Positions 6,711 to 48,708 of a stretch of DNA of 55,009 nucleotides are shown one piece after another. The notes under the pieces are model-generated. The model was not told where the DNA came from and did not search any database. It worked only from the letters and a program-made list of their open reading frames with translations. This DNA is from Campylobacterota bacterium (lineage in GTDB: Bacteria > Campylobacterota > Campylobacteria > Campylobacterales > Sulfurovaceae): NCBI GenBank assembly GCA_003252535.1, contig QKDN01000033.1:1-55009 (forward strand). The letters run 5' to 3'. How positions within the stretch are numbered: position 1 is the first letter of the stretch; every line of letters starts with the position of its first letter. The position numbers and the translations under genes were made by a program.

Positions 6711-6806
6711 TGGGGATGGGGTTATCTCATAATTATAGGGTTAATGTCTTCTAAAATGAATAAAACAAATACATTGTAAACTTCACTTTACAAATTTAGG
6801 AGTTAT

Positions 6807-9686
6807 ATGAATACAGATACAGATAGTGAAAAAATAATAAATTTTATCGAAAAAAAATATGGTAAAGTGTGGGATGATAAAAACAAATTATTGGAAATAA
6901 CTTCCTTGGATTTATCAAGTATGAATCTGAAAGACATTTCTGTTTTAGATGAACTAAAAAATCTCGATGTTTTAAATTTGTGGAATAATGAAATTACAAA
7001 CATTGGAGTTCTAAGCAAATTAGAACATTTATCATATCTAGTGTTGGGTTCAAATAGTATTAGAGATATTTCAGCATTATATAAATTGAAAAAATTATCT
7101 CATTTGAACCTGTGGAAAAATAATATTAGAGATATATCTGCTTTAGAGAATTTAATAAATCTTGTTTCATTAGACCTGGCATACAACCAAATAAAAGATA
7201 TTTCTGTACTTAGTAGACTTAGGAAACTAACGATAATTAATTTAACATCAAATAAAATTCAAGATATTTCTTCATTAAAAGAACTCAAAAATCTTACAAG
7301 TTTATCATTATCTAATAATCAAATTGAACTTATTAAACCATTAGAAGAGTTGAATAAACTTACACTATTAGATTTAAGTGCAAATTATGTTATTAGTATT
7401 GCTCCACTTAGACAACTAAAACACATTTCTTCACTTTATTTAGGTAACAATCAAATTCATGATGTATCTGCACTTCAGGCATTAAAGACACTAAAATTTG
7501 TAAGTTTAAATAGCAATGAGCTATCAGATATTTCTTTATTAACTGATCTAACTAATATTCAGGAACTATATTTAGGTGATAATAATATCATTGATATTTC
7601 TGCATTAAAAAACTTTAATAAATTGGTTTTATTAGATTTGCATGATAACGAAATCAAGGCAATTCCAAAAGAATTGTTTCAATTTGGTATGGAGATAAAC
7701 TCTTCTAAATGGAAGTCTAATGGTATCAATATCATGAATAATCCATTAGAAAGTCCTCCGTTTGAAATTATCAATCAAGGTCATGATGCTATTAAAGCAT
7801 ATTATATTTCTTTGGATGACAACAGTAAAGAGCTGAATGAGCTTAAAATTATTTTTATTGGTGAAGGAGGTGCGGGTAAGACATCATTGATTAGAAGAAT
7901 TTTAGATAATCAATTCAATAAAAATGAATCAATGACACATGGAATCAATATACGAGATAGAGATATTGCAATTCAAAACACTACAATAAAAACCCATTTT
8001 TGGGATTTTGGTGGTCAGGATATAATGCACTCTACACATCAGTTTTTTTTATCGCGTAGATCACTTTATGTACTTGTACTTGATGGCCGAAAGGAAGAGG
8101 ATAGTGAATATTGGTTAAATTTCATTAAAAGCTTTGGCGGTAATTCCCCTGTAATAATTGTTCTAAACAAGATTGATGACAATGAAAGTTTCGAGGTTAA
8201 TCGTAAATTCCTCAAAGAAAAATATCCTAATATCGTTGATTTTTATAGATTATCATGTTTGGGTAATCGTGGAGTCGACGAGTTTTATAGTGCATTAAAA
8301 CAAACTATGCTTCAGGTAGAGTTTATCCGTATGAAATGGCCAAAAAATTGGTTTGCTATAAAAAGTCATATTGAAAATCTTAGAGATAATTTCATCAATA
8401 AAACTCATTTCGAATCTATCTGTATACAAAATGGAATAGATGATGAACAAACTCAAAAAGTACTCAGTGATTATCTTGATGCTCTAGGAATAGCTATTCA
8501 TTTTAATGACTTTGAACTTAAGGATATCCATACACTTAAACCCGAGTGGGTAACTAATGGGGTCTACAGTCTTATCACTTCCCAGGAACTAAATAATCAT
8601 CATGGAGTCTTAAATAAATCTGTATTATCTAAACTTCTGGATAAAAGCATCTATCCATCTACAACACATCAATATATCATTGATCTAATGGAAAAATTTG
8701 AGTTGTGTTACAGTATCAGTAAACAAGAGGTGCTTATCCCTGCTTTGCTGGAGATAGAAGAGAAAATTTTTGATTTTGATTATACTCATGCACTTCGATT
8801 TGAACTTGAATATAACTTTTTACCTAAATCTATCATACCTGTATTTATTGTCAAAAGCCATGAAGACATCAAGGATAAACTCCGATGGCGAACGGGTGTA
8901 GTTTTAGAAGATAAAAAAACGAAATCAATAGCTGTTGTAAAAGTTGATATACGGGAAAAGCGCATATACATTTATGTTAATGGCGATCAGAAAAGAGATT
9001 TTTTTGCAGTCATACGAAAAAGATTTCATGATATCAATAGTAAATTTAATGAAATTGAAGTAATTGAATTAATTCCACTTCCAGAATATCAAAAAGAAAA
9101 AGTTGAATATTTAACCTTAATCGGCTATGAGCAAATGGGAGAAGATAAATATTTACATGGTAAAATAAAAAAGTACTTTAGTGTATCTAAGCTTCTTAAT
9201 GGCATAGAAAAACCAGAGCATAGAAGAGGTGGAGATACATATATTCTAGGCAATATAAACAAATTTACTGGAGGTAATGACATGGGAACTGGAAATATTA
9301 GTGTTGGTGGAAATGTAACCGGTGATATTACAGGTGGTGATAAAATCGATAAGAGTGTGAATGTTGGCGGTAATAATTCCGGTATCATCAATACAGGAAA
9401 CCACAATACCATCACCCAAACGATCACAACATCAAATACCGACCTCAAAGCACTTCTTGAAGCTTTCCAGACAGAAGCCAACAAAGTAGTTGAAGCTCTC
9501 CCGGAAGAGAAACAGACAGAGTTCAAAGATGATGCAGAAACCTTCATCGAAAAGGCTCAGGAGAACAAACTCGACAAATACTTCAATGTCAGCAAAGAAG
9601 GACTTCTCGAAGCAGCCAAAGCAGTGGGTGAAGTCGGTCTCGAACTTGCCAAAAAGATTCCTGAGATAGTAAAGATTTTGGGCTGA
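6807..9686 (+). CDS. LRR-ROC-COR (ROCO) GTPase with beta-repeat and helical C-terminus
   Basis: The 959-residue protein begins with about twelve 22-residue leucine-rich repeats (residues about 45-310, pattern LxxLxLxxNxIxDISxL). A Ras-of-complex GTPase follows: P-loop GEGGAGKTS at about 352-360, switch region THGIN, G3 motif DFGGQD at about 399, NKID at about 454 and a G5 SC motif. A COR-like dimerisation domain spans about 510-740. The tail carries glycine/asparagine repeats (GNISVGGNVTGDITGGDKI) at about 825-875, ending in an alpha-helical segment of about 85 residues. Catalytic GTPase residues look intact. The gene is far richer in AT than its neighbours except for its last 250 bp, which suggests transfer. 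ATG follows TAGGAG. ROCO proteins signal by GTP-controlled dimerisation; a role in phage or conflict defence is only an inference. Confidence 0.85.
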   Translation: MNTDTDSEKIINFIEKKYGKVWDDKNKLLEITSLDLSSMNLKDISVLDELKNLDVLNLWNNEITNIGVLSKLEHLSYLVLGSNSIRDISALYKLKKLSHLNLWKNNIRDISALENLINLVSLDLAYNQIKDISVLSRLRKLTIINLTSNKIQDISSLKELKNLTSLSLSNNQIELIKPLEELNKLTLLDLSANYVISIAPLRQLKHISSLYLGNNQIHDVSALQALKTLKFVSLNSNELSDISLLTDLTNIQELYLGDNNIIDISALKNFNKLVLLDLHDNEIKAIPKELFQFGMEINSSKWKSNGINIMNNPLESPPFEIINQGHDAIKAYYISLDDNSKELNELKIIFIGEGGAGKTSLIRRILDNQFNKNESMTHGINIRDRDIAIQNTTIKTHFWDFGGQDIMHSTHQFFLSRRSLYVLVLDGRKEEDSEYWLNFIKSFGGNSPVIIVLNKIDDNESFEVNRKFLKEKYPNIVDFYRLSCLGNRGVDEFYSALKQTMLQVEFIRMKWPKNWFAIKSHIENLRDNFINKTHFESICIQNGIDDEQTQKVLSDYLDALGIAIHFNDFELKDIHTLKPEWVTNGVYSLITSQELNNHHGVLNKSVLSKLLDKSIYPSTTHQYIIDLMEKFELCYSISKQEVLIPALLEIEEKIFDFDYTHALRFELEYNFLPKSIIPVFIVKSHEDIKDKLRWRTGVVLEDKKTKSIAVVKVDIREKRIYIYVNGDQKRDFFAVIRKRFHDINSKFNEIEVIELIPLPEYQKEKVEYLTLIGYEQMGEDKYLHGKIKKYFSVSKLLNGIEKPEHRRGGDTYILGNINKFTGGNDMGTGNISVGGNVTGDITGGDKIDKSVNVGGNNSGIINTGNHNTITQTITTSNTDLKALLEAFQTEANKVVEALPEEKQTEFKDDAETFIEKAQENKLDKYFNVSKEGLLEAAKAVGEVGLELAKKIPEIVKILG

Positions 9687-9694: not shown

Positions 9695-9834
9695 ATTTGT
9701 AGGTTTGGCACCGCCAAACGATAGTGGTGATCCCGTATCCGGGCAGCCATACCGACCTGTGATCCATCCCGCATAAAGCATCTCAGATATCAGTAGAATT
9801 TCCCAGGGCGTTTGGCAGCGCCAAACCTACAAAT
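9695..9834. repeat. 140-bp MITE-like element behind the ROCO gene
   Basis: Two 26-bp terminal inverted repeats (9695-9720 and 9809-9834) start ATTTGTAGGTTTGGC and differ at two positions. Each arm contains its own palindrome (TTTGGC..GCCAAA). The element begins 9 bp after the ROCO stop codon and has no coding capacity. Its ends resemble the GTAGGGTGCA element at 413-499 in layout (GTAGG plus an internal palindrome), but the sequence differs. Confidence 0.75.
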
Positions 9835-32900: not shown

Positions 32901-34623
32901 AGAGCTCTTTGTGGTCGATCACATCGGCTATCTTCATCTCACCCTTGCCCTCAAGGGTCGAGATAGCATCTGGCTTGAGTGACATCTTGCTATCGTCGAT
33001 CTCGAAGCGGCTCATGTCGTCATATTTACCATCGTGCTTTACGGGAGCAGCATCGTATCCCTTTGCCCTCGCTCCGGCGAACAGCCCTGTACCCTCTGCC
33101 TTGCCACCGTACTTATACCCTAACCCGGCACCGACTGCCGCGCCGATACCTATTCTGGCCAGGTAATCTTTCATGGTGAGGTCTTTGCCGTCAACGATAT
33201 CTTCGTAGGCAGCATCCATACCGCCTACAGTACCTCCACCGAGAGCACCACCCAGGGTATTTGTTCCGGCATTTGCGAAGATAGCCATACCGTTTTCGCC
33301 TATCGGAGCACCATCTTTGTCGTATCCATACCCGCCTATGCCGTTATCTTTTGCAGGGTTGTCTTTGGAGATCGGTACACCGTTCTCATCGTACCTCTGA
33401 TCCATCCACGGGGATTTGCTCGTATCTGTATTTGATTTGGACCAGGCGGGATCATTATCAAGTCTATGCAGGTCTTGAGTAAGCTTGTCCATGAGCTTCT
33501 CATCGATATTGCCTTTTTTGAGGTTTGCTATATCCTGTTTGGTGGTCACGAAGTCAGCGTCATAGTTCTTGCTGTAGTCAGCAGGGGTGACTATTGTTTC
33601 GTCCTTTCCGCTTCCTGGTATGATATGGCGTTTGGCATTGAGAACATTGTCATACTGTATGTTCTTTGCAGCCACATTCTCCCTCATGCCTATCAATTCA
33701 TCAAAGCGTGGATGGGATGCTATGCTCTCAAGCCTTGCAGCGGGATCGTATGGAACCGGTAGATTTGATACTTCATCACGGTTGACTGGCACCTGTTCCG
33801 GCTTCCTGCCCGTCTCTTCCCTTTTGAATTTCGGGTCTACATCATGGTATGTCGATCTAATTTTCTTGATCTCTTCGAGGTGATCGCCGGATATGCCGTA
33901 GTGTTTTGCAAGGTTAGGATCATCGGCAATAGCCATGATTGCTCTTTTTGCTTCGTCGCTACTGTCTATATCTTCTACTTTTTTGATGGCATTTGTCACT
34001 TTACCTTTGGTGAACGCTGCGATAACTCCGTTTAGCACCCCGACGATACCGCCGCCAATAGCCATCTCACCGTACTTTTGCTCATCAGTCTTAGTGGTAT
34101 CGCCGTAGTTCTTGAACGCACTCGTGGAAGCACCTACCGCCGCACCACCGACGACAGACTTGATGATCCTGTTTGCTTTGCTACCCTTGCTTGCAATCCC
34201 TGTAGGGGTAAGGTTGAGCGGGTCAAGGAGTATCTCACCACCGAGCGAAGCCCACTCGTGATCTTTTGTCTTGATCTTCTCTTTTGTCTTGAGCTGCTCC
34301 CAATACTTTTGATTATCCTTGAAGAACCCAGTATTGTACTCATCCGGCACTATCGCATCGGTTACCTTTTGAAGCCCCTTATTGATTGATGATCCATACT
34401 CAGCAAATCCCTGTAGTCCACCTGACAGGAAGCTATCTGCCGTACCATGCTTGTTGTCTTGAGATTTATGGAAATCATTGTTGGAGATCGCCGCCTCATA
34501 TGGGTTCGTGTCGCCGCCAGATGCCTTTGAAAACTGATCATATGGGTTATTCTTAACCTCCATACCGCTGTATGGATTTGATTGCTTTTGGTCGGTGGAG
34601 AATTGATCGTATGGGTTAGCCAT
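29941..34623 (-). CDS. Very large ejection-type structural protein with zincin-like motif
   Basis: This 1560-residue protein has NPYDQFS-type repeats at its N-terminus (NPYDQFS, NPYSG, NPYDQFS, NPYEA in the first 45 residues), glycine-rich hydrophobic segments at about 145-210 and 470-510, and a zincin motif HEIQHWIQFKEGFATGG at about residue 620, as in large polyvalent protein-associated domains. A C-terminal part around 1250-1450 has conserved NRIAMYTHLRDKMG and PFISWTYYTMPAIWKLM. Proteins of this size and make-up in podovirus-like phages are internal virion proteins ejected into the cell with the DNA; the peptidase-like motif could open the cell wall. The ATG overlaps the preceding stop (TGATG). 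Confidence 0.65.
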   Translation of the reverse strand: MANPYDQFSTDQKQSNPYSGMEVKNNPYDQFSKASGGDTNPYEAAISNNDFHKSQDNKHGTADSFLSGGLQGFAEYGSSINKGLQKVTDAIVPDEYNTGFFKDNQKYWEQLKTKEKIKTKDHEWASLGGEILLDPLNLTPTGIASKGSKANRIIKSVVGGAAVGASTSAFKNYGDTTKTDEQKYGEMAIGGGIVGVLNGVIAAFTKGKVTNAIKKVEDIDSSDEAKRAIMAIADDPNLAKHYGISGDHLEEIKKIRSTYHDVDPKFKREETGRKPEQVPVNRDEVSNLPVPYDPAARLESIASHPRFDELIGMRENVAAKNIQYDNVLNAKRHIIPGSGKDETIVTPADYSKNYDADFVTTKQDIANLKKGNIDEKLMDKLTQDLHRLDNDPAWSKSNTDTSKSPWMDQRYDENGVPISKDNPAKDNGIGGYGYDKDGAPIGENGMAIFANAGTNTLGGALGGGTVGGMDAAYEDIVDGKDLTMKDYLARIGIGAAVGAGLGYKYGGKAEGTGLFAGARAKGYDAAPVKHDGKYDDMSRFEIDDSKMSLKPDAISTLEGKGEMKIADVIDHKELYDNYPDAANIKIKVDDSLQPGSGWFKDGVLGIPKGTTDKELLDTAVHEIQHWIQFKEGFATGGSQKAMMQNVESSIYKLEKQGDLSPADAIRYKDELEYLKGNKSEEAFNRYQRLAGEIEAREVEARRGLTKGEREAINPYENAVTAYGRKNSEETAAMRDFVDLADYMDGKIPIEETNFFKVNGGDASSFIEHMGSLERSMPQLADKSPEELRVVLSKIDDESGLREATKNAMLEGRLKNTGSAGIDKADAIINFNRSKMEKNLDHLKDVVGEDRVKEWKDASSSLWNLFRDSLSSEYHNAREKVTAKSSGDSVMIERVHKVLTDLSEKDRLDMHDYITGEGSALSSDLKPFADLIKNDIRSLGEQAVNLNVLSKESFDEWSGYYIRRNYEKHFFRDIKNLVGRGFTVEDIHKRGKVDVVGKDEADKIVQNLWTNTPDNPLNIPLRDGGVRVVDLGNGKFEIRRDWTRAEREAMGEIRDASITIPDTLMRMKRMVDNANFLKEVSDMDSVVLKDFRERVFDLDGNPIDGKAKYNSEELKAMGFVEVSNHPRFGALAGKAIRKDVYDDIVAMNDDLFGTLHGADGALARVWKGYLSLWKKSKTVWNVPSHINNFASNLFIMHLSGMKSHEIISALGKAGKMMYHEGKYEELIAKGLRGENTLEDMAELSTLGKDLRYLVEAKEGGLLGRSQLNDITDGRQNSVAKSLLGALDKKAQELYHNGDAINRIAMYTHLRDKMGLGIDEAKSMVLKVMPDYSKPMPKGYRVLRDTGVSPFISWTYYTMPAIWKLMKTKEGATQMAKAVGLVSAMEYMLSDGQVTPLDNLPFYDGNKPDEFKGRRFAIGRDGSKIDTLKIDRWIPYLELQNPPNFVLSQISGPTVKAITNLATAGSENGMVDTYTGKAVTMKKDASQRAYDTAKYLTESYVPLPGTAYSAYDYVESLVRDQKKRKKNSVVEPRTQEQSILKILGLNTMTYDKDNLKREQRKK

Positions 34624-35573
34624 CACTTACCCCTTGAGTTGGTGTAGTAATCCCATGCCTGCTGAGTAGATATAGTCTTGCCATCAGGGAGTACTATATC
34701 GCCGTTTGAATCCCTCTTCACATCAGACAATGAAACACCATAGTTCTTTGCTACATCGTGCATAAGCTCATTGCTTTGGTTGATGTCAAGGTTCACTTTT
34801 GTCTTATTGTCGTCAGTGCTTTTGTTCTGGTCTCCAGCTTGGTTCTGCTGTAGCACATAGTCGGTACCGCCGTACCAATTGCCTTTTTGAGTGAATTGGG
34901 GCTGATTTCCTGTTTGCAGGAAGTGATTGTATGCGGCAGTGATATCTTCGCTGCTTGCACTATCGGCAACATTTGATCCCAAAGCCCCCTTGAAGCTCTC
35001 TGCATCTGGGTAAAGCTTCTTTCGCTTGATCATCTCATCGTAGACGCTGTTATTACCATTTTGCATTTCGATAGCTTTTTCCCTGATCTGGAGCTCACGG
35101 TCTCTTTGATTCATCGTGTCACTATGAAACTTAGCGTCCTGGGCCATCTTGTCCCTTGAGAGTTGATCATTGGCGAAGCTGATCCCTGTTCTTGATAACA
35201 GGTCATTGTTGTTCATCCTCTCCCTGGCGTCGATCTCCTGTTTGGTTTTGGCTAGATCGGCGACTATCCTGTTTTGCTCCATGTTCTGCTTGGCAAGGTT
35301 TCTTATGTGAACATTCTGCATGGCAGTGTTCGCCATGTCGCTGTAGTGACCGCCGTAGAACTGTGCAGGTTGATACTTTTTGCTCTCATCATTCCCCGGG
35401 TCAAACTCCCTTGCATTGTAGTTCAGGCTTCCGTTCTCGACCCTTGCCTGTGCGACTGGTGACATATTTGGGCTACCAGGTGTCTGAGATAGCTTGAGCG
35501 GCTCTGTGGACGGCTCTCTCCTTGGCTGCATAGACCCCATATTGATTACATTGTCTTTTTCGTTTTGATCCAT
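34623..35573 (-). CDS. Phage structural protein, coiled-coil, unknown
   Basis: The 316-residue protein is rich in Q, N, D and K. A predicted coiled coil lies at about 85-180 (NLAKQNMEQNRIVADLAKTK through RDRELQIREKAIEMQ), followed by a polar segment. It has no recognisable family. Its place directly before the giant ejection-type gene, with a TGATG overlap, suggests it is another internal virion protein that assembles with it. AAGGAAA is the ribosome-binding site. Confidence 0.5.
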   Translation of the reverse strand: MDQNEKDNVINMGSMQPRREPSTEPLKLSQTPGSPNMSPVAQARVENGSLNYNAREFDPGNDESKKYQPAQFYGGHYSDMANTAMQNVHIRNLAKQNMEQNRIVADLAKTKQEIDARERMNNNDLLSRTGISFANDQLSRDKMAQDAKFHSDTMNQRDRELQIREKAIEMQNGNNSVYDEMIKRKKLYPDAESFKGALGSNVADSASSEDITAAYNHFLQTGNQPQFTQKGNWYGGTDYVLQQNQAGDQNKSTDDNKTKVNLDINQSNELMHDVAKNYGVSLSDVKRDSNGDIVLPDGKTISTQQAWDYYTNSRGK

Positions 35574-35575
35574 AG

Positions 35576-36787
35576 TTATTTCCTTAGAAGTTCAAAAAGC
35601 TCAGTGGATACAGTAGAACCGCTGAGACAAATTTTTCCGAAGTATCCCACAACGCTATCAGAATAGATGTTCAAAAATCTAGTAGTATCGCACGGCAGAG
35701 TGAATTTGATCTGTGTGTCGAGAAAGTGCTTGAAGTCGTAAGTGTGTATCACGCTTCCTGTCGATGATCTCTTTTGAAAGTCACCGTACTGGTCAAACGG
35801 TATGAGTATCTCTTTTACTGGCAGATCGGGAGTCCATGTACCGTATTTCCTGAGATTGTACTTGTATCGTGCACCACGGTATGCGCCGAACTCGTAGAAA
35901 TCGTATAGGCCCATGACCCGGTACTCGCTCCATTTCTTGTTTATGGTCTTTTGCTCCCATGTCTTCGCGTTGAGCACTGTAGTCTTGCCGCTGAGCTCCA
36001 AAAAGAAATACCGATCTTTCCAGTAGAACCGTGGGGATGGTGATACATTGTTGAGAGTCGCCTTGAGCTCAAGGTTTCTGTCGTATACATAGGTGGTAGT
36101 TCCGTATCTGTTGAAAAAGTGATCACCATACCCGTACAGCGTGCCTATGTTTGGTAGCTTCTTTTTGACCTGAATGAAAGGTGGCTCATGCGTGATGATC
36201 TCAACGCCGGCAAGGGTGCTTCTCACACTGAATCCGTCACACGGTATAGGCTTGCTGCCCCACATGGTTTCGTCCATAGAGTATGTAGTCTCATTTGTGA
36301 GCAGATCGATATGACCGAACTTGTAGATGTAGTCACTGTCACTACTTTTTACCTTTGGTCTGTACATGAAGATGAAGCCACTGTTGATCCCACCGTTATA
36401 CGGTGAGCCAGCGTACTCATATTGCTCTGATAGCTGATAATCAATCCTGCCCTGCCACCGTATTCGCCTGTAGTATCTCCGTGGATCATACACTATATCG
36501 AGCTTGCCATCAGGGATGTCGATGTAGTATGGAAGTATTGACCACTCCTTTATCTTTGGCATATCAATCACCTCGTTGTCGCCGTCGATATCATAGGAGG
36601 TACGCTCGCCCCGTGACAATCTGTCCACGATGCTATCGTCAAGGTTAATGTAGCGGTCAAGTGGGTTCTTGCTTTGCGAAAGAGAGTTCTTTGTTGCCTT
36701 GCGAAATGACCCGTTGGATATCTCTATAGCCAATAGAGACTCAGGGTCTCTGTATGGTCTCGGGTACGGGGTTATTTCTCTAGGCAT
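35576..36787 (-). CDS. Phage structural protein, aromatic-rich, unknown
   Basis: The 403-residue product is beta-rich with many Tyr, Trp and Phe residues and no transmembrane segment. The beginning, MPREITPYPRPYRDPESL, is proline rich; the middle shows repeated RFYWKDRYFFLELSG-like strands suggestive of a propeller. I recognise no family. The order of genes suggests a tail-tube or nozzle protein of a short-tailed virion, but this is guesswork from position. The start overlaps the previous stop (TAATG). Confidence 0.5.
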   Translation of the reverse strand: MPREITPYPRPYRDPESLLAIEISNGSFRKATKNSLSQSKNPLDRYINLDDSIVDRLSRGERTSYDIDGDNEVIDMPKIKEWSILPYYIDIPDGKLDIVYDPRRYYRRIRWQGRIDYQLSEQYEYAGSPYNGGINSGFIFMYRPKVKSSDSDYIYKFGHIDLLTNETTYSMDETMWGSKPIPCDGFSVRSTLAGVEIITHEPPFIQVKKKLPNIGTLYGYGDHFFNRYGTTTYVYDRNLELKATLNNVSPSPRFYWKDRYFFLELSGKTTVLNAKTWEQKTINKKWSEYRVMGLYDFYEFGAYRGARYKYNLRKYGTWTPDLPVKEILIPFDQYGDFQKRSSTGSVIHTYDFKHFLDTQIKFTLPCDTTRFLNIYSDSVVGYFGKICLSGSTVSTELFELLRK

Positions 36788-38001
36788 TACATATCAGGAT
36801 AGTTTATGTTCTCTACTACGACCCATGTCTCGTAATCGTATCTGAGCCTGAGCAGGGTAGCACCGTCCGGTGATATAGTAGCGTTGCCGTATAATGTCTG
36901 CGATGGATCAAGCGTAATGGTCGATGAGGCGGCAAAGATCATAATTGATATCTCCATCCCCTCCCAACACTTTACAGTCGTACCGCTACCATCGTCAAAA
37001 CTCTTGAAGATGATCGTAGCGTCCCCATCTGGTGCGAGAACAAAGCTATTATAGTTCTCGGTATCGATCTCGATATCTCCAAAGCCAGATTCAATAGCTT
37101 GTCTGTATACCCCGAACCTTCCTGACCCCGTAGCCGTTGCCCCGCCTGTAGGTGCATCAACAAGTACAATACCGTCACCGTTCGCGTTTACGGCTACAAA
37201 CTTGCCAGCAGTGAGCGTAGCAGGAGTGTCGGATAGTCCAACAAAACTTGTAGCACCACCGCCCTCTCCTGCGACCATATCGATGAACTCAAAGCCGTCC
37301 TCCGTCTTCTTGACAGCGATCACCTTGCCGCCCATGCCATCAAATGAATCAGGCGTGTCTGAAAGTTCAAGTAAGCTTGCTTCGGCTGCATCCCTGCCTA
37401 CGAATCTGATAGCAGGGCTCCATAGCCCCTGGTCACCGCTCTTGAAGCTTATGAAGATATCACCTCCAACATACGACTCATGAAAATTGATCCCGTCACT
37501 CGAATATCTGAAATATACTACTGCATCTGCCACTGTATCATCTCCTGTAAGTTTTTTTTGAATTTGCATATCCCGGTATGCAGCATTGTACGCACGGTAA
37601 ATCTCATCGGCTATCTGCTTGTATCTGCTCTCCTTAGAGTACAGGAAGTAGATCGTCATGTGGATCACCCCGTGAGCAAGCCCATCGTCGATGTCGAGCT
37701 CTTCTCCGATCACCGGGAATCTTGGTATCCTGATGTAGAACTCGCTAGATACCCTCTTGAACTCTGTGTATACGCTTGAATTTGGCACCATGAGCTTGAG
37801 AGGGTTTGTCCTGATGGCACACTCCTTGAGAGCACTGTCAATGCTGTAGAGTATGTCGTCTGATACCATGTCCTTTAATGGGTGCTCTATGGGTGTTCTT
37901 GACCCGTCGGCAGCTACCTTTAGGCTTGGGTTTGTGTCGTACTCCCTTATTGTCCTCTGGATGAGATTTTTCACTCTGTCTACAGCTTCACTTACCAACA
38001 T
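36787..38001 (-). CDS. Tail protein: connector-like head fused to fibre-type repeats
   Basis: The 404-residue protein appears to be two parts. Residues about 1-150 resemble the whole of the 136-residue connector at 47315-47725 (shared order: a helix ALKECAIRTNPLKL, PRFPV near LDIDDGL, a YF helix, SK, then AYN). Residues about 210-285 contain two LSDTPxxxxxxxGKxxAV repeats, the typical tail-fibre attachment motif, ending in a beta-rich domain. It may bind at the same connector interface and present a fibre. ATG follows GGGGG. Confidence 0.55.
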   Translation of the reverse strand: MLVSEAVDRVKNLIQRTIREYDTNPSLKVAADGSRTPIEHPLKDMVSDDILYSIDSALKECAIRTNPLKLMVPNSSVYTEFKRVSSEFYIRIPRFPVIGEELDIDDGLAHGVIHMTIYFLYSKESRYKQIADEIYRAYNAAYRDMQIQKKLTGDDTVADAVVYFRYSSDGINFHESYVGGDIFISFKSGDQGLWSPAIRFVGRDAAEASLLELSDTPDSFDGMGGKVIAVKKTEDGFEFIDMVAGEGGGATSFVGLSDTPATLTAGKFVAVNANGDGIVLVDAPTGGATATGSGRFGVYRQAIESGFGDIEIDTENYNSFVLAPDGDATIIFKSFDDGSGTTVKCWEGMEISIMIFAASSTITLDPSQTLYGNATISPDGATLLRLRYDYETWVVVENINYPDM

Positions 38002-38002
38002 T

Positions 38003-38956
38003 TTAAACCCCCGATGCCTGGATCGTCGCTACAACGATACTGGTTTCATTTTTCTTATCCTCTATACGCTCATTGACATCAAACGACTTACCTATAGCCG
38101 CCGTCTGCTCTTTCCTATACTCTATCTCGGCTCCCATTTGAGCAATCTTTTCCTGCTCGGTAAGGGTCTGTGCGTACATGAGTGCGTTTCTGGTCTGCTC
38201 AGCCGCAGTCTGCGCTTCCATGAGTGGTATCTTGGCTTCCTCGATCTTGATCTGCTTGGCTTTCAACCCCAACTCTGCGTCGGCAAGCTCGAGCTCTTTT
38301 TGCTTTGTCAAAATGTCCTGTGCCATTAGGTCAAGCTTCTTTTCGTCAATAGCAATCTGAGCAGTCTTTGACTCGATGTCCTTATCCATGAGCTCAAGCT
38401 TTTTCTCTTCGGTGTGAGCCTGTGCAACGATGAGTGGTATCTTTGCTTCCTCGATGGATACCTGTTTTTCCTTGATGAGGAGCTCTTTGCCGGATATCTC
38501 TATCTCTTTCGTCTTGAGCTCTATGTCCTTATCCATAAGGGACAGCTTCTTGGTGTCAAGATTGAGTTGAGCATCCTTGATCTCAAGCTCTTTGGTGTTG
38601 AGGGCTATTTGAGACGGGATGAGCTGCTCGATCTCTACTTTAGCTTTGGCTACCCTGGCTGCAACATCGTTCTTTTTCACAAGATCGTCATTCTGCATAG
38701 AGATGATTTGTTGCTCATTGACAGGGGATTGAAGTGCAATCCTCTCAGCAGCACCGACCGCCGCGTTGATCGTAGAGGTTGTTACTGTGGTTAGGAAGCT
38801 TGAGTAGTACTTTGCCTTTTCATCGTCAGATATTGAAGTGCTTTTACTCAGAAACTCCTTGAGCTCATCTTGAGCTTTTTTGAGAACCGCATCATCATTC
38901 AATACAACCGTCTCAACGGTGTTTTTGATGACATCGTTGAATAGTTCCAAATCCAT
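38003..38956 (-). CDS. Long coiled-coil phage protein with internal repeats
   Basis: The 317-residue protein is almost wholly alpha-helical after residue 90, with strong heptads of K, E, L and I. A segment of about 65 residues is duplicated, visible as IEEAKIPLIVAQAHTEE and IEEAKIPLMEAQTAAEQ, each preceded by LMDKDIELKTKEI- or LMAQDILTKQKEL-like stretches. The duplication is still visible in DNA (38219-38245 and 38430-38456 nearly identical). Such rods occur in phage tails and internal virion proteins. The start follows AGGGAGATA. Confidence 0.6.
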   Translation of the reverse strand: MDLELFNDVIKNTVETVVLNDDAVLKKAQDELKEFLSKSTSISDDEKAKYYSSFLTTVTTSTINAAVGAAERIALQSPVNEQQIISMQNDDLVKKNDVAARVAKAKVEIEQLIPSQIALNTKELEIKDAQLNLDTKKLSLMDKDIELKTKEIEISGKELLIKEKQVSIEEAKIPLIVAQAHTEEKKLELMDKDIESKTAQIAIDEKKLDLMAQDILTKQKELELADAELGLKAKQIKIEEAKIPLMEAQTAAEQTRNALMYAQTLTEQEKIAQMGAEIEYRKEQTAAIGKSFDVNERIEDKKNETSIVVATIQASGV

Positions 38957-38957
38957 T

Positions 38958-39563
38958 CTATATCTCCCTTATCACTACATTTCCCAATACTGAATTGAGA
39001 GTAGCGTCACTTAGTTCTATGTCCTGTAGCGATATGTCACTGAGCGACACATCGCCTATTGACGAGTCTGCATACGATGAGTCGATGATTCCGTCATCCA
39101 TGCTTATCTCGTAGTTGAGGTTTGATGGATTTCTGTTTATCATGAATTTCTTACCGAGCGTCTCAATGACCATTACGCTGTCGGTAACTTTTGCGAAGTA
39201 GAATCCGTCTGCAATCGCACTCATGCTTCCGGCATACAACTCATTACCGTTAGCGTCAAGGGCCCTATATGGTATCGTTACATTTGGCTTGTAGCCTATG
39301 ATAAAGGTTGTGAGTGGATACCCGATACGCTTTACAATTCTCTGGTTGTTGATCCTCGCAAGCATGAAACCGTGAAGAGACGGTGCCTTACTCATGAATC
39401 GCTGCACTGACCAGGATACAGTGTGTGTATGCTCCAGCTCAATGAAAGTCTTTGATATCGGATCGAAAGCATAGATGCTTACTGACGGTGTTGTGTTCGC
39501 GTAAGTGTAAAGCGAGAATTCACCGCCGCTTGATATGCTTGTAGTATCGATCCTCACTACCAT
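38958..39563 (-). CDS. Phage structural protein, unknown (201 aa)
   Basis: A beta-rich 201-residue protein without membrane segments; the C-terminus has short runs of the form SLSDISLQDIELSDATL that could form a beta-helix. No family is recognised. Its start overlaps the upstream stop (TGATG) and it ends 2 bp before the coiled-coil gene, so it belongs to the late transcript. Confidence 0.5.
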   Translation of the reverse strand: MVVRIDTTSISSGGEFSLYTYANTTPSVSIYAFDPISKTFIELEHTHTVSWSVQRFMSKAPSLHGFMLARINNQRIVKRIGYPLTTFIIGYKPNVTIPYRALDANGNELYAGSMSAIADGFYFAKVTDSVMVIETLGKKFMINRNPSNLNYEISMDDGIIDSSYADSSIGDVSLSDISLQDIELSDATLNSVLGNVVIREI

Positions 39564-40117
39564 CAGTATCCTACCGCTACGACCTCATCGTTATTTCCGT
39601 CAACCACAACCACATCCTCTTCGACTATTTTGATTCTTTGCTCCACAAGGATACTATACTTGCTACCCTCCACTGATACAATGTACTCGCCTGGATCGGC
39701 AATGGAGATGTCTTGCGTGGTATACTCACCGAGTTTTACGCTTTGGTTGATCGTAGCACCACTTGGTACGGCAACCAGAAGTTTTTTGTTGATGTAGATA
39801 GTTGCGCCATCGATCTTTTTGATGTATGCGTATTTGCCCGTGGAGTACTCGATAGTATCACCCTCAAGAAGAGTATTTGTGGATGAGTCTACTGTGAGGG
39901 TTGTTGCGTTGATTGCCGCATTTGCCGTGAGTGTTGCCGATCTACTTGCGGTTGCAAGCTCAGCCTCGGTAGCTCCACCTGCAACCACTGTTTTTTGCTG
40001 TAGGTTATCTACTGGAGCATAGTAGGCACTGAAATCGCCAGATTGTGCTCCGAAGAGTGTTTTTTTGGTTGATACTACAACCTTGAATGCTTCTCCAACT
40101 TTTCTTGTGATCATCAT
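39563..40117 (-). CDS. Structural protein translated from a hairpin-gated start, possible decoration protein
   Basis: The 184-residue product is a soluble, Ala/Thr/Val-rich beta protein (TATLTANAAINATTLTV-like strands), as seen in capsid decoration or tail-tube proteins. The start at 40117 is picked because AAAGGA stands 5 bp before it; a methionine follows directly. Its ribosome-binding site and the first two bases of the ATG lie in the stem of a perfect 13-bp hairpin (40116-40155). The same layout appears at the capsid gene, suggesting that both are abundant structural proteins. Confidence 0.55.
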   Translation of the reverse strand: MMITRKVGEAFKVVVSTKKTLFGAQSGDFSAYYAPVDNLQQKTVVAGGATEAELATASRSATLTANAAINATTLTVDSSTNTLLEGDTIEYSTGKYAYIKKIDGATIYINKKLLVAVPSGATINQSVKLGEYTTQDISIADPGEYIVSVEGSKYSILVEQRIKIVEEDVVVVDGNNDEVVAVGY

Positions 40118-40155
40118 ATAGTCCTTTAAACATGGTTTGAAATAAAGGACTATAT
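40116..40155 (-). promoter_or_regulatory. RBS-sequestering hairpin at 40117 gene
   Basis: ATATAGTCCTTTA and its exact complement pair over 13 bp with a 14-nt loop. The 3' arm contains the AAAGGA ribosome-binding site and the AT of the start codon. A degenerate copy of the late promoter-like motif (TTTACTTTTAAAC, 40169-40181) lies upstream. No T-run follows, which argues against a terminator. Confidence 0.7.
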
Positions 40156-40184
40156 TAGTGATGATCTCGTTTAAAAGTAAAGCA

Positions 40185-41231
40185 CTATTGCTTATCAGCC
40201 CAGCTTGAGAACTCCACCCACGGGTTCTGTGAGTACCCAAAGTTTAAACCAAATGCGTTTGACCACATATAGTCGGCAGCAAGCACATCGCACATGAACA
40301 TATCCGTTGTGTCGCTCTCGTAAATGGTTGCCACCTTATCGTACCCATTCATATCAGAAGTATCAAATCTCGACATAGTGCTTTCTTCAAACACGATCTC
40401 CCCATCTTTGATGTAGTACTTCACATCTGACACATCGCCCCTGCACCCGTCATTTTTCTGAAGTTCAGTAGGAGCACCCAAATCGAAAGCAACGACATAT
40501 CCGAGTTCACCTACGCCGGACCACCCGCCACCAACTGCTTTGTGATCGTCGATGTATTGTATTTGATCGGGCCCGAAAGGGATACTGCACTTATAAATAC
40601 TGTGGTTGTACTGGCTGACATATACGCCATCGTAGTACTTAGAGTGACCGCCTACGACAATGATGCCTGTAGCTGTCACTACGCCTGATCCAGTGTCTAC
40701 CACGCCGCTCTCGTCATACAGTACGCCATCGACTACAATTCTACCGCTCGCCCCGAGATGGGAACCGTTTGTACCGTCAAGTACTGGCACTGTTGTATTT
40801 GTAAGCCTGTCCATCATATATTGCTTGCTGAAAGTCCACACTTTCCCATCGAGACTACCTACATTGTTGTACTCTTTGAATAGCCTCAACCCGCCATTGA
40901 TTGTAGTTCCAAAAGCGAGGCAGATACCGTTCAGGTATCTAATGTGAAGCATATTGTCGATAACAGATATCTCCACAGCCTGTCTGAATTGCTCAGCAAC
41001 CTCATTCATTTGTATTGAATCAAGGTCGCTTTGTGCCTGAGTCCATACAGCACCCACTATGTTATTCGACACTGTGCTGATCTCATGGCAAGTTACAGCC
41101 CCATCATTAAGTATGAACAGAATCGGTATCTTTACAGCCAATCCAACATTGAACACCACGATATCTTCAGCAGTCACACCTATGGTCGTCGCCGCCGGGA
41201 TAATCGTTGTGACTCTATCGCATCCTACCAT
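40185..41231 (-). CDS. Phage structural protein, unknown (348 aa)
   Basis: The 348-residue beta-rich product has many Gly, Val and Tyr residues and no membrane segment. The middle region (GRIVVDGVLYDESG, VGGHSKYYDGVYVSQYNHS) looks like a carbohydrate-binding or concanavalin-like fold used by tail appendages. Not recognised by family. It overlaps the end of the preceding gene by 7 bp and ends before the hairpin-gated gene. Confidence 0.45.
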   Translation of the reverse strand: MVGCDRVTTIIPAATTIGVTAEDIVVFNVGLAVKIPILFILNDGAVTCHEISTVSNNIVGAVWTQAQSDLDSIQMNEVAEQFRQAVEISVIDNMLHIRYLNGICLAFGTTINGGLRLFKEYNNVGSLDGKVWTFSKQYMMDRLTNTTVPVLDGTNGSHLGASGRIVVDGVLYDESGVVDTGSGVVTATGIIVVGGHSKYYDGVYVSQYNHSIYKCSIPFGPDQIQYIDDHKAVGGGWSGVGELGYVVAFDLGAPTELQKNDGCRGDVSDVKYYIKDGEIVFEESTMSRFDTSDMNGYDKVATIYESDTTDMFMCDVLAADYMWSNAFGLNFGYSQNPWVEFSSWADKQ

Positions 41232-41629
41232 GACATCCTCCTTAATGATCCCCAGTCGTATGCCAGATACCCGGCAGGAACTACCTCTGATCCTGCCACC
41301 TCAAACTTTCTGAAATTTGCACTCTTGTAGTTTAATGGCTTGATCGCTCCGTCGGCAGTCATAGCCAGATTTACAGTCTCGTCCTGAACCTCAAGAGCAA
41401 TTTGCTTCCACTTTTTAGTCCCATACGGATTGTTTGGATATAGCGAGGAGCTTTTTGTCTCCCCGGTGATCTCTTTGATGATGGTTTCTTCAGGCGGGTT
41501 GCTGAGGTTGAATGTGATAACCGCATCACCGAGCCCAAAAGATACAGATTGACCCTCTGGCTTCATCTTCTTTGGGGTGATCGTTACACTGTTGCCAGTC
41601 CATTTGTATGTGACATCATAGATACCCAT
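41225..41629 (-). CDS. Small phage protein, unknown (134 aa)
   Basis: The 134-residue beta-rich protein opens with MGIYDVTYKWTGNSVTITPK and carries no motif I recognise. Coupled to both neighbours by overlapping start and stop codons (TAATG upstream), it is probably made in fixed ratio with the large tail protein before it. Confidence 0.45.
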   Translation of the reverse strand: MGIYDVTYKWTGNSVTITPKKMKPEGQSVSFGLGDAVITFNLSNPPEETIIKEITGETKSSSLYPNNPYGTKKWKQIALEVQDETVNLAMTADGAIKPLNYKSANFRKFEVAGSEVVPAGYLAYDWGSLRRMSW

Positions 41630-44508
41630 TACGCATTACCTCCGTCGATTGATTTGTGCATGAATGTATCTTCAAGCGTGATGGTACTGAACCTGTCGGT
41701 GATATCGTTACCGTCTTTGTCTGTAGCCATATAGGTGACCGTTACGGACCCGTCGCCATTGTCGGTAAAGCTGTACTCCACCTTATCGGCTTTTGTGTCG
41801 TATACTGGCTCCTGTAGCCCCTCTATGCCTACCTGGTTGCAAGCCTCAAGTGTAGGTAGCCCTCTGAACTGCTCAGCTTTGAAATTCATATTCTCCACAT
41901 CGAATACAAAGTCAAACTTCTCATACGATCCGCTTTTATCAACGCAGTATGAGCATCTTATGAATTTTGTTTCACTGTCGTAGTCAAAATCTGAATGCAG
42001 CTTGCTAAGCACCTGTGCTTCAAGCACTTCACCAGAGTTAGTGATATCACATATATCTCCCATGAAGTTTGACTTTAGATGAGTCCTCGACACCATTTCG
42101 TTGTAAAGAGATATTTCGTACTCTGTCTCGATGGTCATTACATCATGGTATTCAACCGTAATGGTATCGCCATAGTAGTCCTGCTCCCTCGTATACACCT
42201 CACCGTTCAGCACTTCCGGAACAATGCTGAATGTCAATGTGTCACCCTTGATAAGCCTGATGAGCCCTTTCCCGTTGAATAGCTCCTTGTGGAAAGCTTT
42301 ATACTTGAATGAATTTACATATCCATCCCCGAAATACGAATCATTTTCGTCAGTATTGTATACCTGAGGGTTGTAAGTTCTGATTACATCTGCCTTTACT
42401 GGCGAATACTCATCGTCGGTTATTGGGGTTGAATTAGCCGTAACAATCTCAACGAACTTTTTAGCTATCTCTGTAATGAACCACTTGTCACTGTCACGGA
42501 TCATGAAGTCAGATTTAACCTCAACAAGCTGTGGTTTAGATAGTGCCATTTCGGTCATTCCGTTTGCATCAAGCAATGGAACTCCGTTTACATAAACATG
42601 CTTCCAAAGATAGTCTGTGTACGGGAGATAATCTATCATGTGCAATACGCCGTTTTGATCAGGTGACGGTATATTCTTGTAGGCAAAAATCGACGCTTCA
42701 TTTTGAGAAACCTGCGTATCTACTGTTACATCGGAGATACCCGCAAGTGATAAAGCGTATGACGCTTCCGGTGGTATCATATTAAACTTGTTGATTCCTT
42801 GCCCGTACCAGTCAAGCACTTCACTATCCCAGAACGCAAGTCCATCGGGCAAGTTTGTATCTTCGTCAACCATTGAAGCTTTGTTGTTGCTGATCCTTAT
42901 AAGGGCACTTCCATAAAGATTGATAATCTTGGACGGGTCCTTGATGAGGCTATATACATCTCTGCCTACTTTGTAATAGCTTGAAACAAATGCAGGTTTT
43001 ACAGTAGAAAGATCGATATATGAGCCGTCAAGGGAACCTTTATAGTCATACACATCAATCACATTTGCCTTTTTTGCTACAGGAGTTGCCAATAGATCAT
43101 GGTATCCAACAACAGGGGTTGCTTCAAGATATCTATACCTGACATTGAGGATACCCCAGTAGTACAGGTAGTTCTTTTCACCTATGCCACCGCTACTCAA
43201 ATACGCCCTCAGCTCAATCACATTGATATTTGGGGCGAACAGTGCCGAGGCATTTACATCGCTTGTAAGCAGATACTCAATATTTGCAAGAAGTTTATCG
43301 GACAAAACAACATCGTGCTTTACGCCGATCTTCTTAATCACGATTACTGTGTTGCACTCACCTGGAGGTACGGTAGACGAGATGCCGACAAACTCTTCGA
43401 GAACCTCTATCTGATCTGCTCCGATCCATTCGTTTTGAGGATCATTCAGCCCCCTACTCCCGTAGATTGCGCCGCCGTTTCTGATGCCGTGCTCACCGTC
43501 ATCGCTTAGAGGCACATATTCCATGAACACAGTAAGATCGCTGTTATCGATTATGATAATGTTCTGTATGAATGTGAAGTGAGTTAGCACCTCATATAGT
43601 GCGAGGGCGAGCATCTTGTTTGATGTAGTGCCGCCATCGATATACCCGGTAAGCGTTACCGTTCTGAAGTTAAGATTGAACCGTACACCGAAGCTTGTAG
43701 TGATATCGATTTCGTCTTGAGCCCAGGCATTTGAACAGTCGAAATTCTTCACTATGGTGTCGAGGGATACCGATGTAGCATTGGTAGAAATTTCTGCCTT
43801 GATTGCATCGCTCAACGGCTGCTGAGAGTGTACATACACTACGCTTCCGTTGCTTTGCGACAGAGTGTATTCGCTCAATGAGTCAGAGTAAGCTATCGTT
43901 TTGATCCCGTCTCCATACTGAGTATCATTCATCGCAGCATACACATCATCTACAGACGGAAAGCTGCCACCTGAAAGATATGAAGCATACTCCTCTACGG
44001 TATGACTGGAAATGATCGAAGCCAATTCCGAGTCGGCAGATAGCCCAGTGTAGCCAAGTGCCGAGTATACGCCGTTGATATCTTTTGCGAGCTGATCGGC
44101 AGTTATGCTTCCATCTACATACTGAGAGAACAACGACGCAATATTTATCTTTACCCCGTAAGGATAAATAGCGTCCTCTACTGCCTGAAGTGAATCTGGC
44201 TTGATAGTGAGGTCGCCATCCATAGAGCACACTTTACCTACCAGGCACCCGGTCAAGGTATTGATATATGCAGTCCCATCTACAAATTGAATCTTGAGTG
44301 CCTCATCAACATCAACACTCTTCCAAAACACATTTTCAGAATCTGGAGCAACATCGAAGCTGATGGATTTTTCGATGATATCACTGATAGGTATTCCCGA
44401 TACAGACACGCTACCATCCTGATTGATAGTAGCTGTAGCACCAGGGTACACCGCAAGAATATCATCACTGATAGTAACCGATCCGTCCTTGATTATGATT
44501 GATCCCAT
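41629..44508 (-). CDS. Large tail/fibre protein, unknown (959 aa)
   Basis: At 959 residues this is the second-largest phage protein. It opens with MGSIIIKDGSVTISDDILAVYP and a run of beta strands, has mixed alpha/beta segments in the middle and ends in GDGSVTVTYMATDKDGND, a typical immunoglobulin- or bacterial-adhesin-like beta domain. No catalytic motif is seen. The gene lies among fibre-like genes and would fit a tail spike or a baseplate-like hub. TAATG overlaps couple it to both neighbours. Confidence 0.5.
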   Translation of the reverse strand: MGSIIIKDGSVTISDDILAVYPGATATINQDGSVSVSGIPISDIIEKSISFDVAPDSENVFWKSVDVDEALKIQFVDGTAYINTLTGCLVGKVCSMDGDLTIKPDSLQAVEDAIYPYGVKINIASLFSQYVDGSITADQLAKDINGVYSALGYTGLSADSELASIISSHTVEEYASYLSGGSFPSVDDVYAAMNDTQYGDGIKTIAYSDSLSEYTLSQSNGSVVYVHSQQPLSDAIKAEISTNATSVSLDTIVKNFDCSNAWAQDEIDITTSFGVRFNLNFRTVTLTGYIDGGTTSNKMLALALYEVLTHFTFIQNIIIIDNSDLTVFMEYVPLSDDGEHGIRNGGAIYGSRGLNDPQNEWIGADQIEVLEEFVGISSTVPPGECNTVIVIKKIGVKHDVVLSDKLLANIEYLLTSDVNASALFAPNINVIELRAYLSSGGIGEKNYLYYWGILNVRYRYLEATPVVGYHDLLATPVAKKANVIDVYDYKGSLDGSYIDLSTVKPAFVSSYYKVGRDVYSLIKDPSKIINLYGSALIRISNNKASMVDEDTNLPDGLAFWDSEVLDWYGQGINKFNMIPPEASYALSLAGISDVTVDTQVSQNEASIFAYKNIPSPDQNGVLHMIDYLPYTDYLWKHVYVNGVPLLDANGMTEMALSKPQLVEVKSDFMIRDSDKWFITEIAKKFVEIVTANSTPITDDEYSPVKADVIRTYNPQVYNTDENDSYFGDGYVNSFKYKAFHKELFNGKGLIRLIKGDTLTFSIVPEVLNGEVYTREQDYYGDTITVEYHDVMTIETEYEISLYNEMVSRTHLKSNFMGDICDITNSGEVLEAQVLSKLHSDFDYDSETKFIRCSYCVDKSGSYEKFDFVFDVENMNFKAEQFRGLPTLEACNQVGIEGLQEPVYDTKADKVEYSFTDNGDGSVTVTYMATDKDGNDITDRFSTITLEDTFMHKSIDGGNA

Positions 44509-45023
44509 TAGATCACCGCCCCATCGCCACCACAGTTCTCACCTATAGTGAGTTGATACCCTGTGCCTACGACTTCATCAGGTACAACAATGTTGAATGT
44601 GGTATCATCAACCTTTGTCACTGAAGCATTGGAAATGATCGATCCGTCGGACGCTTTTACACACGCTGTCATGCTGATTGCAAGCTGCTCTTTCAACGCA
44701 TTTGTTACCGACACCGTGAGGTCATGGATGATCTGATTGTAGTATGCAGAATCTGGAGAAATGTCAGCTACTGCATTACCGCCGTTAAACTCGAAGTGAT
44801 TGCTCTTGTCACTCAATACAATCTTTTTGGCTTCAGGGATATAAATGACTGCTACCTCATTATCACCAATGCTACTCTTTATCGTAGACAATAGTGTTGC
44901 CTCATCTTTACTTCCGTTGGAAATAAAGAATACCATTTCAGTACCATCGACAGACACATTGAGTCCTACAGACTCAAAGTATCCATCTTCAATATACCCA
45001 TCCTCGATATATTCATTGCTCAT
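44508..45023 (-). CDS. Small tail-fibre-associated protein ending GGDGAVI
   Basis: The start at 45023 is chosen over an ATG 12 bp upstream because GGAGG lies 5 bp before it. The 171-residue product has a repeat YIEDGYIEDGYFE near the N-terminus and a helical LTVSVTNALKEQLA middle. Its last seven residues, GGDGAVI, match the end of the 305-residue fibre protein at 46331-47248 (GGDGMVI). It is probably part of the same appendage. Confidence 0.5.
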   Translation of the reverse strand: MSNEYIEDGYIEDGYFESVGLNVSVDGTEMVFFISNGSKDEATLLSTIKSSIGDNEVAVIYIPEAKKIVLSDKSNHFEFNGGNAVADISPDSAYYNQIIHDLTVSVTNALKEQLAISMTACVKASDGSIISNASVTKVDDTTFNIVVPDEVVGTGYQLTIGENCGGDGAVI

Positions 45024-45035
45024 AGCATCCTCCAT

Positions 45036-45902
45036 TTACACAGCATTTGCATCAGGCACAAGGTTTACATACTGTCCGTAAATCCTGTCGAATCCTCCAT
45101 CGTACAGTGTTACAGTGTACACTATATCAACCACATCGGAAGTACTGATGGCTATTGCGTTGTTGAAGTAGATACTAGGTGTGACGATAACACCATCAAT
45201 CAGATTGTCCCCATGCGTGTTAAGTATAGATATGGTTCCATTGTCGTTGTGAATAAGCACTTTGAATTCAAACCCAAGGTATGTGCTGTTGCTTGATTTT
45301 TTAAGGAAACCTGATACTGTTGCAGTAGCAAAACTTCTTGACAAGAATGAATCGTTAAGTCCACATACCCACTGGTTTGACAGCTTTGCACCCAAAGATT
45401 CCTTGCTTGTAGATAGGTTGTTTCGAGAGATCATGTACTCTATTGCAGCATCCTTTTCGCCAAGTGCAATAGCCATAGCTTCGACCATTGAGATATTCGC
45501 ATCCATTTCCTCTATGGTTACAGGTGCATCCTTGTCCGATCTCATCGTAGCATTGAATACATTTGCCACTAGTTTTGCACTACTGATTTTCGTTGTATCA
45601 TAATTGACTACGACGAAGAATGCAAATCCTGCTTCGCTCATCCAGTTATCCGGCACATACGCAACTGTTCCATCTACATCCGTGTAAAATGTTTTTGCGT
45701 ACTTGCAGTCACCGTTCGTATCGTAGATATAGAACTTCACCGCTGTTGGGGTGTCTGTCGCCTTAACCGTGAATTTGTACACACTGTTTTTTGATGGATG
45801 AACCTTGAATTTTGCAGTATCCACATCTGCCGCAGCAACCTCAACATCAATACCGATAGGTAGCTCCTGAGAGATATCAACATTATATTCCTTTGTAACC
45901 AT
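45036..45902 (-). CDS. Phage structural protein, unknown (288 aa)
   Basis: The 288-residue product has a beta N-terminal half (VDISQELPIGIDVEVAAADV, KFKVHPSKNSVYKFTVKA) resembling a pre-peptidase or carbohydrate-binding jelly roll, a helical linker at about 130-160 (EEMDANISMVEAMAIALGE) and a second beta domain. No family is assigned. AAAGGA precedes the ATG. It sits in the cluster of fibre-type genes. Confidence 0.45.
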   Translation of the reverse strand: MVTKEYNVDISQELPIGIDVEVAAADVDTAKFKVHPSKNSVYKFTVKATDTPTAVKFYIYDTNGDCKYAKTFYTDVDGTVAYVPDNWMSEAGFAFFVVVNYDTTKISSAKLVANVFNATMRSDKDAPVTIEEMDANISMVEAMAIALGEKDAAIEYMISRNNLSTSKESLGAKLSNQWVCGLNDSFLSRSFATATVSGFLKKSSNSTYLGFEFKVLIHNDNGTISILNTHGDNLIDGVIVTPSIYFNNAIAISTSDVVDIVYTVTLYDGGFDRIYGQYVNLVPDANAV

Positions 45903-45913
45903 TGCTTGTCCTT

Positions 45914-46291
45914 TTAAATTATGTTTGCCTGAACAGAATCCGATCCGAGCTCTAGCGAAGTTATCCTGTCATCATGATTTTGAAGCATACTCTCTATACT
46001 TGGTGAATCGATCATCTTCATCTCGATTCTGCCCGTTGCCGCAGGTGTGAGTCCGTACATGGACTGGCAAGCAGGTGTATAGATACGCCATAGTTGACCG
46101 CTGTTCGTTGAGTGTCCGTATGAGAAAAACACATCGGCAAAGAAGTAGTCAATGTAGTTTCCGTTTGCATCTTTATTCTCCGGCTTGTCCTGAAATGTAG
46201 TGTTGAGCCAGTTGAGAGATGCGAGCATAGCGGTCTCGAAATTTGCGGTAGAGTTTGGTCTTACCAAAATATCTTTTTTGTATAAAGCCAT
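45914..46291 (-). CDS. Small phage protein, unknown (125 aa)
   Basis: The 125-residue protein has a mixed fold without a recognisable motif and a C-terminal helix (SIESMLQNHDDRITSLE) that could trimerise with a fibre. A strong GGAGG ribosome-binding site stands before its ATG, and a 7-bp hairpin (46307-46327) separates it from the fibre gene read before it. Confidence 0.45.
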   Translation of the reverse strand: MALYKKDILVRPNSTANFETAMLASLNWLNTTFQDKPENKDANGNYIDYFFADVFFSYGHSTNSGQLWRIYTPACQSMYGLTPAATGRIEMKMIDSPSIESMLQNHDDRITSLELGSDSVQANII

Positions 46292-46306
46292 ATTACCTCC
46301 TTGGCA

Positions 46307-46327
46307 ATAGCCCCGATAGAGGGCTAT
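46307..46327 (-). promoter_or_regulatory. Intercistronic hairpin between fibre genes
   Basis: ATAGCCC and GGGCTAT pair around a 7-nt loop just after the stop of the 305-residue fibre gene and 16 bp before the next start. Without a T-run it is more likely an RNA processing or stabilising element than a terminator. Confidence 0.5.
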
Positions 46328-46330
46328 GGG

Positions 46331-47248: not shown

Positions 47249-47280
47249 CGTTTTTCCTTTGTGTTAGTGTTATGGAGAGC

Positions 47281-48660: not shown

Positions 48661-48670
48661 TTATCGTAAT

Positions 48671-48706: not shown

Positions 48707-48708
48707 AG

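Follow-up and report, generated by a model that had tools for sequence, protein, structure and literature searches.

The Roco GTPase encoded in the 55,009-nucleotide stretch of Campylobacterota DNA analysed here, which comes from a bacterium of a sulphur-oxidising group (contig QKDN01000033.1; the whole stretch is called the window below), belongs to a known protein family, and the exchangeable module at its C-terminus is undescribed. This module is mobile, since it occurs on COR bodies that do not share a common clade and also on a leucine-rich repeat (LRR) protein without ROC-COR. The chances are about even that the window protein is an NLR-like, GTP-switched sensor, most likely in defence against phages or other mobile elements, a reading that draws on its relatives and not on the window copy itself.

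Domain architecture of the Roco protein

The 959-amino-acid protein carries its domains in the order LRR, ROC, COR-A and COR-B, each of them above the Pfam cut-off, and its open reading frame coincides exactly with the interval 6807-9686 in which a preliminary description of this DNA had placed a ROCO GTPase. At the N-terminus, Pfam recognised seven LRR_8 and nine LRR_4 stretches. The tandem of ROC and COR (Pfam, above cut-off) makes the protein a Roco family member, and the N-terminal LRRs found by Pfam place it in group 1, to which, to our knowledge, all known prokaryotic members with their N-terminal LRRs belong. COR-A and COR-B form the dimerisation unit of Roco proteins. In the translation, the P-loop GEGGAGKTS, the switch II motif DFGGQ and the NKID motif are all intact; with these motifs as the basis, GTP binding, hydrolysis and a dimer/monomer cycle are putative properties of the window Roco. 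The closest solved relatives were the bacterial 'Rab family' Roco structures 8r4b and 6hlu (E ~1e-187), with LRRK2, the human Parkinson's protein and a Roco relative, further off. Behind COR-B follow Gly-Asn-rich repeats (LGNINKFTGGNDMGTGNISVGGNVTGDITGGDKI...) and then a helical end; the repeat tail noticed earlier is thus present in the translation, at residues ~822-877.

Table 1 Features of the Roco gene in the window
Feature	Position	Strand	Basis
Whole Roco gene, 959 aa	6807..9686	+	ORF, Pfam, solved relatives
AGGAG Shine-Dalgarno-like site of the full-length gene, 4 nt 5' of ATG	6798..6802	+	Sequence reading
Leucine-rich repeats, residues ~30-290, putative sensor	6894..7676	+	Pfam LRR_4 1.4e-37, 9 stretches
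ROC GTPase core, residues 347-457	7845..8177	+	Pfam Roc 4.1e-32
COR-A (residues 512-648) and COR-B (residues 662-799)	8340..9203	+	Pfam 7.8e-39 and 1.2e-26
Gly-Asn repeat linker, residues ~822-877, with composition step at codon 847 (about 9345)	9270..9437	+	Translation, change-point analysis
GGAGGT Shine-Dalgarno-like site, 7 nt (aligned spacing) 5' of internal ATG	9270..9275	+	
C-terminal module, 134 aa, from in-frame ATG codon 826; candidate separate product	9282..9686	+	
Four-helix tail domain, residues ~878-958	9438..9680	+	AlphaFold2; common to other proteins

The same domain order is found in the Roco of Chlorobium tepidum (3dpu, 5il7 and related entries) and in Roco2 of Methanosarcina barkeri (4wnr), and these group 1 structures are strongly related in sequence to residues 107-818 of the window protein. 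Rocos of the Chlorobium tepidum/Methanosarcina type have been described as ending with ROC-COR (PMC6337361), whereas the window Roco has an additional module made of the Gly-Asn repeats and four helices.

Structure and family searches with the tail

The AlphaFold2 model of the module, which was built from just five sequences, has helices at module residues 53-72, 75-93, 99-115 and 117-133, with pLDDT values mostly of 85-92. The repeat part looks disordered (40 of the 134 residues under 50). Foldseek searches with the tail model gave nothing better than E ~1; the best PDB match had an E of 1.8, and the Death fold was unmatched. Convincing matches of the tail were likewise missing from Pfam, NCBIfam, PHROG, PADLOC and PDB sequences. 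Neither the protein nor its last 128 residues matched a known EAD in Pfam at E <= 1, and Pfam gave no bDLD/TRADD-N match for the window protein, whose module is modelled as four helices. A Death-like or known EAD tail was rejected, as Pfam, NCBIfam, PHROGs, PDB sequences and Foldseek gave no match, and the profile search against effector-associated and death-like domains that the preliminary description had proposed as a check came back empty.

The AbiTii proteins at loci L074 and L075 have ends of similar appearance, but a profile comparison of the tail with AbiTii and with the Gly-Asn tails of small proteins gave a probability of just 20% and did not confirm the likeness. A 178-aa protein found in two genomes (L044 in G205 and L046 in G297) has the repeat ISVGGNNHGSIITGNNNTV and a hydrophobic C-terminus; possibly, it belongs to a wider family of Gly-Asn-repeat ends.

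Composition of the gene and its surroundings

The GC content of the Roco gene is 0.307, against 0.54-0.64 in the flanking genes, and the GC3 of its body is ~0.2, against 0.76-0.85 in the neighbours. Roco is rare in the phylum, with COR-A above cut-off in four of 397 genomes. This rarity and the foreign composition agree with the horizontal acquisition that had been suggested for the gene. An AT-rich body followed by a host-like last 250 bp had been suggested as well, and the first half of this holds: the single best change point at synonymous sites is at codon 847, with a GC3 of 0.18 before and 0.45 after it (LLR 18, matched in 0 of 1000 permutations). The second half does not hold, as the last ~250 bp (GC 0.447) have a GC3s of 0.45, and 384 host windows of 82 codons each went no lower than 0.51 (median 0.78); a host-like tail was thus ruled out. 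The composition of the window tail is closer to that of the module in the low-GC Sulfurovum and Sulfuricurvum copies (GC3 0.34-0.43) than to that of the host. In one of these copies (G036, see below) the GC3 of the module, 0.43, is above that of its own COR, 0.31. Since the tail lies below the host range and the module has this lower GC3 elsewhere, we conclude that body and tail are both foreign and have separate histories.

No tRNA, integrase or Rfam feature was found at the Roco site or in its region. Nine other genomes of the genus, searched for an empty site, had no match to the flanking genes (158 aa and 254 aa) and so offered none for comparison. At 9 bases past the Roco stop codon, a MITE/REP-like element begins (window positions 9695-9834); its inverted ends (ATTTGTAGGTTTGGCACCGCCAAACG) are 26 nt long, and it has partial copies at several other sites of the same genome. 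Some 25 kb away from Roco, the minus strand of the window (~34600-53800) carries a prophage or other phage-derived region, with genes for terminase small and large subunits, an SU10-like portal, a major head protein and tail-like proteins.

Occurrence of the module on different bodies

The tail module is present at four other places, all in one order: in Sulfurovum SulCav_AS07-7 (G036), twice in Sulfurovum FS08-3 (G019) and in Sulfuricurvum SulCav_FS06-10 (G308). A pattern scan of contigs of 84,980 genomes gave only four tail loci. In G036 the module stands behind a COR body; the tail is 73% identical to that of the window, the COR 33%. In the COR tree, the window protein grouped with G004, G040, Nostoc UHCC and Photobacterium (98/99), and G036 with G020; forcing the CORs of the window and G036 into one clade cost 91.5 lnL units (AU p = 2e-7). 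The G308 copy forms the end of an LRR protein, and no ROC-COR was found in this protein. A tail common to incongruent COR bodies and to this protein upholds the earlier proposal that a body had been joined to a C-terminal module. All three copies extending far enough share the DNA stretch ACCATCACCCAAAC letter for letter, which is compatible with module exchange by recombination.

The module was absent from the plasmids and viral contigs searched. The full window protein was not found in the pattern scan of genome contigs, nor was the Roco of a relative in viral contigs, and phage matches were LRR/internalin-like only. A tail-nuclease fusion on contig C62 of G019 was ruled out, as the DNA reading puts the tail in another frame behind a nuclease-like ORF; we treat this copy as a remnant. 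At this locus (L016, 4849-5924) the remnant lies directly behind the nuclease-like gene, which looks Rpn-like by eye; next to a run of N, part of the end of this gene recurs at its front in inverted orientation.

A candidate internal start at the front of the module

ATG codon 826 (9282) has GGAGGT 7 nt before it, and the other nine of the ten internal in-frame ATGs have no Shine-Dalgarno (SD) match of at least 5 nt. In G036, AGGAG lies 7 nt before the aligned ATG, although the encoded amino acids around it differ; 61 bp before this ATG, the COR frame stops at a TAG, which separates COR from the tail ORF. In the G308 gene, scanned blind, just one ATG was preceded by an SD; it lies at the front of the module, 124 codons before the end, with AAGGAGGT just behind it and ahead of a GTG. 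An SD-preceded start was thus found at the module front in three of three readable copies, and the 16 other Roco genes scanned had one SD-preceded internal ATG, near an N-terminus. Under synonymous shuffling, which is a conservative null here, the chance of an SD match of at least 5 nt was 0.55 for the window, 0.20 for G036 and 0.20 for G308, or jointly ~0.02, so the support is modest. These sites are suggestive of a module that may also be translated by itself. Rpn genes work in this way: their C-terminal piece is also made as a protein of its own, which inhibits the complete defence toxin (PMC10327210).

The C-terminal slot in relatives

We read Roco relatives from plasmids and Campylobacterota to their C-terminal ends. 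The place behind COR was occupied by CHAT in Nostoc (8e-35), TIR_2 in Niveispirillum (1.6e-9), EAD1 in Calothrix (1e-26) and EAD11 in two Haliscomenobacter proteins (2e-7 and 2e-6, both above cut-off). By eye, the ends in G020 and Pseudanabaena are apparent membrane helices and those in Spirosoma and Photobacterium look like PD-(D/E)XK, the latter without confirmation by Pfam. From the TIR, CHAT, EAD1 and EAD11 ends we conclude that a variable output slot is a property of the Roco family and that the window module sits in that slot. The effector- or adaptor-like end proposed earlier therefore fits the slot as relatives use it, and the defence genes beside several relatives support the general idea as well; the window tail itself matches no EAD or Death-like domain.

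Neighbourhoods of Roco genes

Plasmids, in which defence genes abound, supply most of the evidence from gene neighbourhoods, and it stands without matched control genes. On Haliscomenobacter plasmid pHALHY02, a BREX cluster (DUF1788, brxC ... pglZ) follows a Roco gene immediately and in the same direction, with DarT/DarG-type genes (DUF4433, macro domain) on the other side of Roco; on pHALHY01, Roco adjoins hsdM/hsdS, and hsdR is further on. In Photobacterium, the Roco gene is part of a Tn7-like transposon of the type I-F CRISPR-associated kind, where TniB and TniQ flank it. In G042 (L022, contig C1, 831-6035), a Roc-COR protein is encoded beside SLFN_AlbA_2, a type II DNA methyltransferase and a PD-(D/E)XK protein. 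G004, from the same genus as the window, has Roco head to head with a weakly AbiTii-like gene (E 0.007). About half of the plasmid Roco loci examined had no defence neighbour, and no defence gene was recognised near the window Roco among the proteins checked.

Two Roco genes of G040 surround an ATPase like PD-T4-4_A (8e-27), AriA and PtuA. At this locus (L017, contig C149, 4940-9993), the pair flanks a two-gene unit, in which the gene of this AAA_15 ATPase is joined by a small one with weak likeness to PD-T4-4_B. All four genes may form one defence unit.

A Roco part on a plasmid of Nostoc UHCC 0926 is in an operon with a MoxR ATPase and a SAV_2336 protein. Such a setting was described by Kaur et al. 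(2020, PMC7159879) for AP-GTPase-COR proteins, which are components of ternary conflict systems of the MoxR-vWA kind; their ROC-COR GTPase is like that of the window, and the Nostoc relative shares the place beside MoxR. In contrast to them, the window Roco has LRRs and stands alone, with no MoxR or vWA gene recognised beside it.

Possible function and alternatives

From the observed architecture, intact GTPase motifs, foreign composition, tail shared by incongruent bodies and slot domains of relatives, we infer a course of sensing, defence and module action. The LRRs would recognise an invader-derived or damage signal, which would shift ROC-COR in its nucleotide state and between dimer and monomer; a nucleotide-dependent dimer/monomer change is established biochemistry for bacterial Roco proteins. 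This change would release or cluster the C-terminal module of Gly-Asn repeats and four helices. The module, which takes the place of the TIR, CHAT or EAD domains of relatives, may serve for output or for regulation; it is mobile and would recombine between bodies. Such a protein would share with STAND/NLR sensors (AVAST, bacterial NACHT) the combination of a repeat sensor, a nucleotide switch and a variable output slot. It differs from them in having a Ras-like ROC GTPase instead of a STAND ATPase, with the LRRs N-terminal and the output slot C-terminal; indeed, Pfam gave no NACHT or NB-ARC match for the window protein, the nucleotide domain of which is Roc/Ras-like. The domains in the slot of relatives and the defence genes beside several of them make the NLR-like immune reading plausible, although indirect. 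PADLOC has no Roco model, and the window protein gave just weak P-loop matches to LeoA/LeoBC (E 3e-4). In the openly accessible literature covered, we found no paper with a phage-defence role for Roco/COR; for the ROCOs of brown algae, a role as immune receptors has been suggested (PMC11378527).

An ordinary accessory signalling GTPase, for example in motility, polarity or biofilm formation, acquired by chance and with no role in defence, is a rather unlikely alternative. It would agree with a literature in which we found no established function for bacterial Rocos, and with a window copy that has neither recognised defence genes beside it nor a tRNA or integrase in its region; the patchy presence of Roco, the diversification of its C-termini into death and defence effectors and the defence neighbourhoods of relatives are, however, atypical of housekeeping signalling. 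We consider it still less probable that the tail is a homotypic EAD-like adaptor recruiting a separate effector with the same module. Its slot, size and helical make-up are EAD-like, bona fide EAD1 and EAD11 occupy the same place in other Roco proteins, and the module is present on different proteins. However, EAD coupling requires a second copy in the same genome, and here the module is single, with no other copy at E <= 1, on an effector or elsewhere, in a genome that is 99.95% complete; nor does any Pfam EAD match the tail.

The internal start leads to another reading of the tail, which is possible although we incline against it. One mRNA would yield both the full-length Roco and the 134-aa module from 9282, and the latter would oligomerise with the long form and restrain or complete it. 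This would be compatible with defence, and a regulatory role would replace the 'effector output' role of the tail. The lone GGAGGT-type site among the internal ATGs, its counterparts in G036 and G308 and the near absence of such sites from other Roco genes argue for it. A precedent exists in RpnL/RpnS, where the short form restrains or completes the long one (PMC10327210): like RpnS, the window module is a variable C-terminal piece, for which an internal start is a candidate, and it can be split off as an ORF of its own. In contrast to the Rpn proteins, the window module showed no nuclease, nor a sequence relation to them, and its short product is putative. Moreover, Gly-Gly codons favour GGAGG anyway, a sequencing error may have produced the TAG in G036 (the contig name gives a coverage of 6.7), and only three copies are readable.

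Significance

Taken as a whole, the NLR-like sensor reading would make bacterial Rocos a GTPase-based counterpart of NLRs with an interchangeable output slot, filled here by an undescribed mobile module that may also be translated by itself and may check or complete the sensor; that all of this holds together is doubtful. Bacterial homologues of LRRK2 have long been used as structural models, and the papers we found assign them no biological function. Acting as immune sensors that can exchange their TIR, CHAT, EAD or unknown outputs would, if true, be such a function. NLR-like bacterial immunity would then gain a class based on a GTPase, and proteins of the LRRK2 type would have their evolutionary root in immunity.
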